From Betaproteobacteria bacterium (GTDB lineage: Bacteria > Pseudomonadota > Gammaproteobacteria > Burkholderiales > SG8-39): DNA of 64,000 bases. Location of the stretch: positions 1 to 64,000 of the forward strand of contig JAJDOG010000040.1 in assembly GCA_022340285.1 (NCBI GenBank), in the 5' to 3' direction. Shown here piece by piece: positions 39,520 through 43,849 of the stretch (the first letter of the stretch is position 1; each line of letters starts with the position of its first letter). Below the pieces are notes generated by a model, which was given only the letters and a program-made list of their open reading frames with translations, searched no databases and was not told where the DNA came from. A program made the position numbers and the translations under genes.

Positions 39520-42500
39520 TCAGGCGTCGTATGCAAGCGCGGGCGCGAGCCAGCGTTCCGTTTTCGCCACATCCGCGCGCTTGCGTCGCGCATAGTCCTC
39601 GACCTGGTCACGGTCGATCTTGCCGACCGCGAAGTAACGGGCCTGCGGGTGTGAGAAGTAGAAACCCGAGACGCTCGCCGCGGGCAGCATGGCGTAGCTC
39701 TCTGTGAGCGTCATGCCGATATCGGTCGCGCGCAGGATGTCGAAGAGCGTGCCCTTTTCCGTGTGGTCCGGGCAGGCCGGGTAGCCGGGCGCGGGGCGAA
39801 TACCTCGATAGCGTTCCGTGATGAGCGCGTCATTCGGAAGATCCTCGTTCGCGGCGTAGCCCCAGAAATCCCTGCGAACCCTCAGGTGCATGAGTTCGGC
39901 GAACGCCTCTGCGAGCCGATCGGCCAGCGCCTTGAGCATGATCGAATTGTAATCGTCGTGGGCCGCCTCGAATGCGGAAACACGCTCCTCGCAGCCCAGT
40001 CCCGCAGTCACCGCAAACGCGCCAAGATAGTCGCGTATGCCCCGGGATTTCGGCGCTACATAGTCGGCCAGGCAAAGATTGAACCGATCCTCCGCTTTTC
40101 GGCTTTGCTGGCGCAGCATGTGAAACACGGTCGCGATTTCCCGGCGAGTCTCGTCAGTGTAGAGCTCGATGTCGTCGCCGACCGAGTTGGCGGGCGCGAT
40201 GACGAACACGCCGTTGGCGGTTAGCCATTTCTCGTGGATGATGCGTTCGAGCATCGCTTGTCCGTCCCGGAATACGCTGCGCGCACTTTCGCCTACCACC
40301 GGATCCTCGAGGATCTTCGGATAGGCGCCGGTCAGATCCCAAACCTGGAAGAATGGCGACCAGTCTATGTAGCGTGCGATCTCCGCCAGGTTGTAGCCGC
40401 GAAACGCCCGCCGGTCGATCAGTCGGGGGACCGGGGGCGTGTAATTCGACCAGTCGAGCTTGCAGGCGTTCTCGCGTGCCTGGCCCAATGTCACCATCGG
40501 CGCCTGGCCCTTCTTCGCCGCATGTTGCGCCCGGATGCGTTTGTAGTCGGCGCGCACCTCAGTGACGTAGCCGTCGTGCGCATCCTCGGAAAGGAGGTTC
40601 GCGCACACGCCCACGCTCCGGGATGCGTCCGGCACGTAGATCACGAGGCCCGAGTAGCCCGGGGCAATTTTCACGGCGGTGTGCACGCGAGAGGTTGTGG
40701 CGCCGCCGATCAACAGCGGGATCTGGAATCCTTCACGTTCCATTTCCTGCGCGACATGCGCCATCTCCTCGAGCGACGGCGTGATCAGCCCGGACAAACC
40801 GATGATGTCGGCTCCCGCCTCGCGCGCCACCTGCAGGACCTTCTGCGCGGGCACCATCACCCCGAGATTGATCACCTCGTAGTTGTTGCACTGAAGCACG
40901 ACCGCCACGATGTTCTTTCCGATGTCGTGCACGTCTCCCTTCACCGTGGCGACCACGATCTTGCCTTTCGGCTTGACGTCGCCCGAGACGGCTTTCTCCG
41001 CCTCGATGTAGGGCACCAGGTGCGCGACGGCCTGCTTCATCACGCGCGCCGACTTCACGACCTGCGGCAGGAACATCTTGCCCGCGCCGAAGAGGTCCCC
41101 GACGACGTTCATTCCGTCCATGAGCGGCCCTTCGATCACCTGGATCGGGCGATCAAATTTCTGCCGCGCTTCCTCGGTGTCCTCGACGACCCACGTCGTG
41201 ATGCCCTGAACGAGCGCATGCGTCAGCCGCTCCTCCACCGGGCTGCTGCGCCAGGCCAGATCTTCTTCCGTGCGCCGTGCTCCGCCCTTCACCGTTTCGG
41301 CAAAAGCCACGAGCCGTTCGGTCGCGTCGCTTCTCCGATTCAGGATCACGTCCTCGACGCGCTCGAGGAGCTCCTTGGGAATCTCCGCGTAGACCCCCAG
41401 CTGGCCCGCGTTGACGATTCCCATCGTCATGCCGGCTTCGATGGCGTGGTAGAGGAAGGCGGTGTGCATGGCCTCGCGCACGGCATCATTGCCGCGGAAC
41501 GAGAACGACAGGTTCGATACCCCGCCGCTTACCTGCGTGTGGGGCAGGTTGGCCCTGATCCAGCGTGTTGCCTCGATGAAATCCACGCCGTAGGCGTTGT
41601 GCTCCTCGAGCCCGGTGGCCACGGCGAAGATGTTCGGGTCGAAGATGATGTCCTCGGGAGCGAAACCGACGCGATCGAGCAGGAGGGCGTAGGCACGCCG
41701 GCAGATCTCCTCGCGGCGCGCCAGCGTGTCGGCCTGCCCCTGCTCGTCGAATGCCATCACGACCACCGCGGCGCCGTAGCGACGCGCGAGTGTCGCCTGA
41801 CGCAGGAAGGATTCCTCGCCTTCCTTGAGCGAAATGGAGTTCACGATCGGCTTGCCCTGGACGCACTTGAGCCCAGCCTCGATCACCGTCCACTTCGAGG
41901 AGTCGATCATGACGGGCACGCGCGAGATGTCCGGCTCCGACGCGATGAGGTTCATGAACGTCACCATTGCCGACTGCGAGTCGAGCATCGCCTCGTCCAT
42001 GTTGACGTCGATCACCTGGGCACCGTTCTCGACCTGTTGGCGCGCGATGGCGAGCGCATTCGTGTAGTCGCTCGCGAGGATCAGCCGTGCGAAGGCTTTC
42101 GAACCCGTTACGTTTGTGCGCTCGCCGACGTTCACGAAGAGCGAGTCTCTCCCGATGTTGAGCGGCTCGAGGCCCGCGAGCCGCGTCCGGTGCTCGATCT
42201 CCGGCACCTTGCGCGGCGGCAGATCGGCCACGGAGGCAGCTATCGCCTGGATGTGTTCCGGCGTCGTGCCGCAGCAGCCGCCGACGACATTGAGGAAGCC
42301 GCTTTCGGCGAATTCGCGGAGAAGACCGGAGGTGTATTCCGGAGTCTCGTCATAGCCGGTCTCCGCCAGCGGGTTGGGCAGGCCCGCGTTGGGATAGCAG
42401 CACAGCCAGGTGTCGGCGCAGCGCGCGAGCTCCTCGATGTAGGGCCGCATGAGCTTTGCGCCGAGCGCGCAATTGAGCCCGATCGTGAGGGGGCGCGCGT

Positions 42501-43212
42501 GGCGAACCGAATTCCAGAATGCTTCCGGCGTCTGGCCGGTGAGCGTGCGCCCGGACTGGTCGGTGATCGTCCCGGACACCATTACCGGCAGGCGCTGGCC
42601 CCGCCGCTCGAACTCGCTCTCGACCGCGAAGATCGCGGCTTTCGCGTTGAGCGTGTCGAAGATCGTCTCGAGGAGGATCAAATCGGCGCCGCCGTCGAGG
42701 AGCCCGCGAGCCGAATCCGTATACGCTGCGACGAGTTCGTCAAAAGTGATGTTCCGGTATCCCGGATCGTTGACGTCGGGAGAGATCGACGCCGTCTTGC
42801 TCGTGGGTCCGAGTACGCCCGCGACAAAGCGCGGTCGTTCAGGCGTTCTGTCGCTCCATTCGTCCGCCGCCGCACGGGCTAACACGGCGGCGGCGGCGTT
42901 CAGGTCATAAGCGAGCGCCTCCATCCGGTAGTCGGCGAGCGAGGGCGCATTCGAGTTGAAGGTGTTCGTTTCGATGATGTCGGCGCCGGCTTCGAGGTAG
43001 GCCCGATGGATCGCCGCAATGATTTCCGGTCGGGACAGCGACAGGAGATCGTTGTTGCCCTTCACCTCGGACGTCCAGTCGGTGAAGCGCGCACCGCGGT
43101 AGCCGGCCTCGTCGAGCTTGTAGCCCTGGATCATGGTGCCCATGGCGCCGTCCAACACTAAAATGCGCCGTCCAAGGAGTGTGCGGAGTTCTGCGGTGCG
43201 ATCTGGCTGCAT
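39520..43212 (-). CDS. metH: Cobalamin-dependent methionine synthase
   Basis: [64 protein letters not shown]-terminal activation domain. Confidence 0.98.
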
Positions 43213-43256
43213 GCTATAGATGGTTGGAACCGGCACCGCCCCGTGCACGGGGCGGG

Positions 43257-43293
43257 AAAAACAAAAACCCGATCGGCCAAGCGCGGATCGGGT
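43257..43293 (-). terminator. Intrinsic terminator in the metH leader
   Basis: Minus strand CCCGATC-CGCGCTTGGCC-GATCGGG followed by TTTTTGTTTT. Confidence 0.85.
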
Positions 43294-43353
43294 CGCTGCG
43301 CTTTAGCCGGATTTCTAGAGCGCCCGCAAGCTGGCAATCAAATCGGCGCTAGG
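43294..43353 (-). promoter_or_regulatory. SAM-II-like riboswitch aptamer upstream of metH
   Basis: Minus strand AGCGCC-GATTTGATTGCCAGCTTGCG-GGCGCTCTAGAAATCCGGCTAAAGCGC: P1 AGCGCC/GGCGCT, GATTT/AAATC pairing, conserved CTTGC and GCTAAA elements. Confidence 0.75.
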
Positions 43354-43453
43354 AGAAAGGCTACTTTGCGTGTAACTCTTTGTCAACCAAAGCGGTTCCC
43401 GCAGCCGTTGCGCGCGATATACTGGCCCCCTTTCCCGCAAGTGTGCCCTGAGC

Positions 43454-43849
43454 ATGAAGCACCTCACACCCCGCGAAGCGTTCGAGTTTCTGCATAGCAC
43501 GCCGCAAGCGCTCATGGTGGATTGCCGCAGCGAAATGGAGTACCTCTTCGTCGGGCATCCCGCTGGCGCCCTGCACGTCTCGTGGAATGACGGACCCGAC
43601 TGGGAGGTCAATCCGCATTTCGTCGGCCAGGTAAAGAAGGTTGCAGGGACCAACCACGCGCATCGTCCGATCATATTGATCTGCCGCAGCGGCAACCGGT
43701 CGATCGAGGCGGGCGAGGCACTCGAGCGGTGCGGCTTCACGGACGTCTATAACGTGCTGCACGGGTTCGAAGGCGATCTCGACGAGAATCATCATCGAGG
43801 TTCCAAGAACGGCTGGCGCTACGAGGGACTGCCCTGGGAGCAGGTGTAG
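43454..43849 (+). CDS. Rhodanese-like domain protein
   Basis: MKHLTPREAFEFLHSTPQALMVDCRSEMEYLFVGHPAGALHVSW...PIILICRSGNRSIEAGEAL. Confidence 0.93.
   Translation: MKHLTPREAFEFLHSTPQALMVDCRSEMEYLFVGHPAGALHVSWNDGPDWEVNPHFVGQVKKVAGTNHAHRPIILICRSGNRSIEAGEALERCGFTDVYNVLHGFEGDLDENHHRGSKNGWRYEGLPWEQV

Follow-up and report, generated by a model that had tools for sequence, protein, structure and literature searches.

A SAM-II aptamer and a probable transcription-attenuation platform in the leader of a betaproteobacterial metH gene

Background

Upstream of metH in the window analyzed here (the whole stretch of DNA under study, 64,000 nucleotides of the Betaproteobacteria bacterium contig JAJDOG010000040.1) lies a leader that raises the question of whether this gene is controlled by a SAM-II riboswitch and, if so, by which mode of action. 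A first-pass annotation, made from the sequence alone, had proposed a SAM-II-like aptamer combined with a transcription attenuator and considered the layout worth testing on the premise that SAM-II switches usually act on translation. Our analysis retains the aptamer and the attenuator but overturns the premise: SAM-II switches normally act through transcription termination, and the metH switch is no exception, being of a known kind and mechanism. With SAM-II (metA motif, SAM_alpha, RF00521; Corbino et al. 2005, PMC1273637), the metH leader shares P1, a predicted P2 pseudoknot, the GAUUU of L1, CUUGC, and GCUAAAG, along with a putative promoter just before P1, an intrinsic terminator after P2, and a methionine synthesis gene downstream.

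With a probability of about 0.87, we read the metH leader as a SAM-II riboswitch that turns metH off at high SAM by means of a transcription-attenuation platform. Transcription is very probably halted when SAM is abundant, and we infer that SAM binds to this leader, that the promoter is used, and that termination depends on SAM. What is unusual here is the target gene, the missed score threshold, the probable resolution of an orphan RNA element, and the swapped antiterminator strand; the nature and presumed working of SAM-II are unchanged by these findings. The gene joins SAM-II control in a beta-proteobacterial family in which the public model misses many copies.

Architecture of the metH leader

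The ORF downstream of the leader is full-length metH, cobalamin-dependent methionine synthase (39520..43212, minus strand; NCBIfam PRK09490, 2160 bits; TIGR02082, 1766 bits). Translation most likely begins at the ATG at 43212-43210, not at the GTG at 43248 given in the mechanical list of reading frames, because a similar N-terminal beginning of about 10 residues is common to the relatives. The leader itself (43386-43257, minus strand, as are all its elements) consists of a SAM-II aptamer and, 3' of it, an intrinsic terminator, and every element named in the first-pass annotation was found by reading the sequence where it had been placed. A putative promoter (43358..43386) comprises a -35 element TTGACA (43386-43381), a 17-nt spacer, and a -10-like element TAGCCT (43363-43358), which would set the transcription start at approximately 43351, just 5' of P1. 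Both elements are kept with equal spacing in three other genomes of the genus. TAGCCT agrees with the -10 consensus in 3 of 6 bases, which explains why a consensus promoter scan listed no promoter at the metH leader.

The aptamer (P1, L1, P2, and L3; 43298..43351), delineated by matches to RF00521 and to a clade model, R1, contains the P1 strands AGCGCC (43345..43350) and GGCGCT (43319..43324, with the pairing indicated by covariation among relatives), the L1 motif GAUUU (GATTT in the DNA; 43340..43344), the P2 5' strand CUUGC (CTTGC; 43326..43330), the segment AAATC (43314-43310), and the P2 3' strand GCUAAAG (43301..43307), the last lying within the aptamer 3' segment GGCTAAAGCGC (43308-43298). 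The terminator hairpin (43268..43292) is formed by CCCGATC (43292-43286) and GATCGGG (43274-43268), which enclose the loop segment GCGCTTGGCC (43284-43275), and is followed by the U-tract TTTTTGTTTTT (T5-G-T5; 43257..43267).

A second strong GC hairpin (43255-43236, minus strand) lies between the U-tract and the metH start. It is missing from two of the three genus relatives, where the ATG falls within a few bases of the U-tract, and no Shine-Dalgarno sequence is evident before metH with or without this hairpin. On the other side of the leader, a rhodanese-domain gene (43454-43849, plus strand) is divergent from metH; a similar coding stretch adjoins metH in two other beta-proteobacterial metagenome-assembled genomes (MAGs; L139 and L145), where the riboswitch motif was not found.

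A predicted terminator and mutually exclusive antiterminator

The terminator has a 7-pair stem and 2 inner pairs, with a folding energy of -15.6 kcal/mol, and was not listed by a simple consensus terminator scan because the loop of its main stem exceeds the length allowed by that scan. An alternative helix joins CGGCU-A-AAGCGC (43298..43309), which overlaps the P2 3' strand, to GCGCUUGGCCG (43274..43284), which consists of the terminator loop and the first base of the 3' arm. This antiterminator (43309-43298 x 43284-43274) has 11 pairs and one bulge, with energies of -18.3 kcal/mol as a free duplex and -16.8 kcal/mol in context, and its formation excludes both the ligand-bound fold of the aptamer and the terminator. 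The loop segment GCGCUUGG has its counterpart, AAGCGC, in the aptamer strand.

When the stem was kept and the loop replaced, pairing with the aptamer strand as good as that observed was obtained in 0.25-0.34% of loop shuffles and in 0.02% of random loops. The test on the whole hairpin thus yielded a p value of about 0.003, compared with 0.13 for a duplex test on part of the terminator only; for the loop and the P2 5' strand, pairing did not exceed the chance level (p about 0.1). The intrinsic terminator is supported, as is the competing antiterminator helix that the first-pass annotation had described, formed by the 3' strand of the aptamer. Within the antiterminator 3' strand, CGCGCTTGGC does not differ among the four genomes of the genus, although the adjacent terminator stem does; the loop CGCGCUUGGC is likewise unchanged, a neighboring stem pair having been converted from A-U to G-C in the three other genomes. 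A loop that stays constant next to a stem undergoing compensatory change is predicted by an antiterminator and not by a plain terminator.

By energies that leave out the pseudoknot and kinetics, the ON state (P1 with antiterminator, -26.6 kcal/mol) and the OFF state (P1 with terminator, -25.4 kcal/mol) are nearly equal. In a transcript of 80-83 nt, when the 3' arm of the terminator is still incomplete, the minimum-energy fold includes P1 and an antiterminator helix on the same aptamer strand. When the complete leader is folded without ligand, the nested minimum-energy structure has a closed terminator and a rearranged P1, so antitermination must be kinetic, taking place during transcription. 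The following sequence of events is envisaged. Transcription would start a few bases 5' of P1, which would fold first. At low SAM, CGGCU-A-AAGCGC would pair with the terminator loop once the loop is transcribed, and the resulting antiterminator helix would hold the loop, such that the terminator could not close and the polymerase would read into metH. With SAM bound, GCUAAAG would be locked in the P2 pseudoknot, the antiterminator could not form, the CCCGATC/GATCGGG hairpin would close, and transcription would end in the U-tract. Points that weigh against this reading are the G that interrupts the U-tract, the weak -10 element, the score under the Rfam cut-off, and a P2 that varies too little for covariation to support it.

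The closed terminator in the nested fold of the full leader is also what would be expected if the SAM-II aptamer acted mainly on translation or RNA stability and the terminator were constitutive, ensuring a low basal level, in the manner of Sinorhizobium meliloti metA. In the latter case, a validated terminator 3' of the SAM-II aptamer is subject to no predicted SAM effect, and most transcripts stop at this terminator in both media tested (PMC9373788). We nevertheless consider such a mode of action improbable for metH: the complementarity between the terminator loop and the aptamer exceeds chance and is kept in the genus, no Shine-Dalgarno sequence overlaps P2, and the metH start is located 86 bases past the aptamer, beyond the U-tract. 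The preferred reading, SAM-dependent attenuation, has a parallel in S. meliloti metZ, an experimentally studied SAM-II attenuator for which the same paper reports a short RNA of about 100 nt, rising in rich medium. In metZ, as in the metH leader, a Rho-independent terminator accompanies SAM-II, and it is predicted to form when SAM binds; unlike the metH leader, the metZ leader is alpha-proteobacterial and precedes another gene (PMC9373788).

The aptamer belongs to SAM-II despite a score below the Rfam cut-off

A standard Rfam scan of the whole window at gathering thresholds matched no family. Searched directly against 43200-43460, RF00521 (SAM_alpha, SAM-II) produced a match along the full model (positions 1-79) at 43359-43283 on the minus strand, with 32.0 bits and an E value of 9.6e-6 in this 261-base search. 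The gathering score of RF00521 is 36 bits, hence the absence of the metH aptamer from the standard scan; we treated this cut-off as a curation threshold, not as a biological trait or a defining feature of the RNA. The clade model R1, constructed from 28 aptamers of relatives with the genus of the window left out and with P1 as its sole helix, matched 43351-43298 at 71 bits (E 2.4e-17), the runner-up in the window scoring 9.9 bits. With this match, the metH leader is assigned on sequence and covariance grounds as carrying a SAM-II aptamer, as had been claimed. The aptamer is present upstream of metH, in a common layout, in all four known genomes of the genus.

The shortfall against the cut-off is typical of the clade. 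In a sample of 399 genomes of the order, RF00521 matched at E <= 0.001 in 171, only 65 of which passed the cut-off, indicating that the Rfam cut-off is too strict for this clade; since most relatives score low too, the low score of the metH leader reflects an Rfam seed poor in clade members. Within the family of the window, RF00521 matched at E <= 0.001 in 62 of 98 genomes (40 over the cut-off) and the clade model at E <= 0.0001 in 96 of 98, a count that is not independent because the model was trained partly on this family. In a genome that was inspected, a wide gap separated the real matches to the clade model from the rest (36.8 versus 15.3 bits). A second RF00521 match in the genome of the window (G000:C7:610; 19.1 bits, E 0.11) lacks the GAUUU/CUUGC motif and was rejected as a chance hit.

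Among the 28 relatives, both bases have changed in 4 of the 6 P1 pairs, and the covariation score of P1 was reached by none of 500 shuffles. In L1, AUUUG is invariant and the first G is present in at least 90% of the sequences; UUGC of the P2 5' strand and GCUAAA of the P2 3' strand are invariant as well. The two sides of P2, CUUGC and GC(U)AA, are complementary and nearly invariant, so that P2 hardly varies and covariation cannot lend support to this pairing here; it is supported by complementarity and the literature. In the crystal structure of SAM-V (PMC6061858), the core of which is closely superimposable on that of SAM-II, the P2 duplex is a CUUGC/GC(U)AA helix with a U-rich 5' strand in its major groove, U:A pairs lie next to a bulged U, which is paired with the SAM adenine, and two uridine O4 atoms face the sulfonium. 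By homology with that structure, the metH P2 is expected to comprise the pairs C43326-G43307, G43327-C43306, U43328-A43304, and U43329-A43303, with U43305 bulged as the expected contact of the SAM adenine, and the third strand, contacting SAM, would be U43342-43340 of GAUUU. All these positions are conserved among the relatives. SAM-V and SAM-II agree in their pseudoknot core and SAM contacts; unlike the metH leader, SAM-V is translational and belongs to marine bacteria, and it is not the best-matching family here (PMC6061858).

The pseudoknot had initially been assigned to GAUUU and AAAUC. This five-pair helix is not conserved, because the base following AAAU varies among the relatives, and was ruled out in favor of CUUGC/GCUAAA as the probable pseudoknot. 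A register of P2 with UA bulged was likewise replaced by that with a single bulged U on the strength of the SAM-V structure (PMC6061858); the variation count was made in the UA-bulge register, and the UU/AA/GC columns are invariant in either one.

The score below the Rfam cut-off, together with the reported existence of altered-specificity variants in some riboswitch classes, could be taken to indicate that this is a SAM-II-derived aptamer with a changed ligand, such as SAH or another adenosyl compound. This is very unlikely, given that the residues expected to contact SAM, mapped by SAM-V homology (the L1 uridines, the P2 uridines and G, the bulged U, and the following A), are all present and match the consensus, including both sulfonium-facing uridines and the adenine-pairing U, that the low score is accounted for by the composition of the seed, and that the controlled genes are methionine synthesis genes. 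Chance resemblance of an ordinary leader and terminator to SAM-II, for which the lack of any hit at Rfam gathering thresholds might be cited, is refuted by the genus-excluding model search and by the conservation upstream of the same gene across the genus.

SAM-II switches before metX, metZ, and metH

Besides the metH aptamer, the clade model detected two others of the SAM-II class in this genome, both missed by the Rfam model: one upstream of metX (G000:C50:58045; L236 1501-1576, C50) and one between a purF-like gene and metZ (G000:C65:19746; L237 1501-1588, C65), the metX and metZ assignments being made by comparison with relatives. In both, P1 is separated from the AAAU segment by an additional hairpin. 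With aptamers before metX, metZ, and metH, each step from homoserine to methionine is preceded by a SAM-II aptamer, and we infer from this arrangement that the three switches put these steps under SAM feedback; if so, a single ligand would govern the homoserine-to-methionine pathway of this genome through three separate leaders. Elsewhere in the genus, each genome contains 3 or 4 SAM-II copies. Across the family, the same aptamer occurs before metH, metX, and metZ, with 121 distinct SAM-II leaders distributed among metH (22), metX (41), metZ (35), and other or unassigned genes (23). SAM-II control of metH is not general: among the best 80 metH loci in named genomes, only three, from Candidatus Desulfobacillus denitrificans, a Nitrosomonadaceae MAG, and a Methyloversatilis MAG, carry the motif upstream.

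The relatives of the window appear to be beta-proteobacterial. A 2014 regulon survey (Leyn et al. 2014, PMC4239095) reports that SAM_alpha was found only in Rhizobiales and Rhodobacterales, and metH is not among the targets named there (hom, metA, metX, metC, metY, and metW). The same survey presents as novel a 'metXZ' RNA element of beta-proteobacteria. This element, for which no ligand is named there, occurs once per genome and comprises a pseudoknot, terminators, and conserved blocks, some of which were guessed to form an antiterminator. That element and the switches analyzed here share their location in beta-proteobacterial metX and metZ leaders, and the metX and metZ leaders of the relatives of the window carry the SAM-II consensus; the difference is that one copy per genome was described there, compared with three here, one of them before metH. 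Judging by this textual description, the metXZ element probably is SAM-II, seen without its class being recognized, and our literature searches retrieved no publication that equates the two. If this is true, the orphan metXZ element is resolved as SAM-II.

Two proposed forms of the antiterminator

The leaders that could be assigned fall into two forms with respect to the strand of P2 to which the terminator is complementary. In form A, the terminator is complementary to the P2 5' strand, typically GUUCAGCUUGCG with CGCAAGCUGAAC; this form accounts for 31 of the 36 metX leaders in which a terminator was found and for 9 metH leaders. Form B is defined by complementarity of the terminator to the P2 3' strand and comprises 8 metH leaders, that of the window included. 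Automatic sorting was unclear for 5 metH leaders and for 25 of the 35 metZ leaders. The bases after GCUAAA are GAG in 36 of 47 form A leaders and GCG in 18 of 19 form B leaders, all these counts including related sequences and hence not being independent. Within the genome of the window, the metZ terminator pairs with the 5' strand (loop-shuffle p 0.0055), that of metH pairs with the 3' strand (p 0.0025), and the assignment of metX is ambiguous (p about 0.03 for either strand).

These observations tilt us, with some reserve, toward the view that the SAM-II platform is strand-swapped within the family. In form A, the 3' half of the terminator would copy the P2 3' strand, and antitermination would be effected by the P2 5' strand CAGCUUGC, with P1 or its loop disturbed; in form B, the terminator loop would copy the P2 5' strand, and antitermination would be effected by the P2 3' strand GCUAAAGCG, with P1 intact. 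Both forms would be found in paralogous leaders, with metH of the genus in form B and metZ of the same genome in form A, and the orphan metXZ element would be SAM-II inclusive of these platforms. The existence of two alternative antiterminator strands offers a natural means of testing which of the P2 strands has to be free for antitermination to occur.

Several further variants were observed. The metH, metX, and metZ leaders of the family (L271-L290, L144, and L111) repeatedly contain a SAM-II variant in which a hairpin is inserted between AAAU and the 3' strand of P1; P3 is described as absent from SAM-II (PMC6061858). Tandem or multiple SAM-II aptamers, approximately 100-180 bases apart, are present at L293 (G048:C137), L292 (G084:C64), L061, L103, and L105; several of these have AUUGC for CUUGC, and some are near genes that do not match metH, metX, or metZ. 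Nine SAM-II copies were counted in the genome G048. Finally, L039, L075, and L216 (in G006, G023, and G289) contain SAM-II-like aptamers with another P1, of the GGGGG/CCCCC type, and a longer L3.
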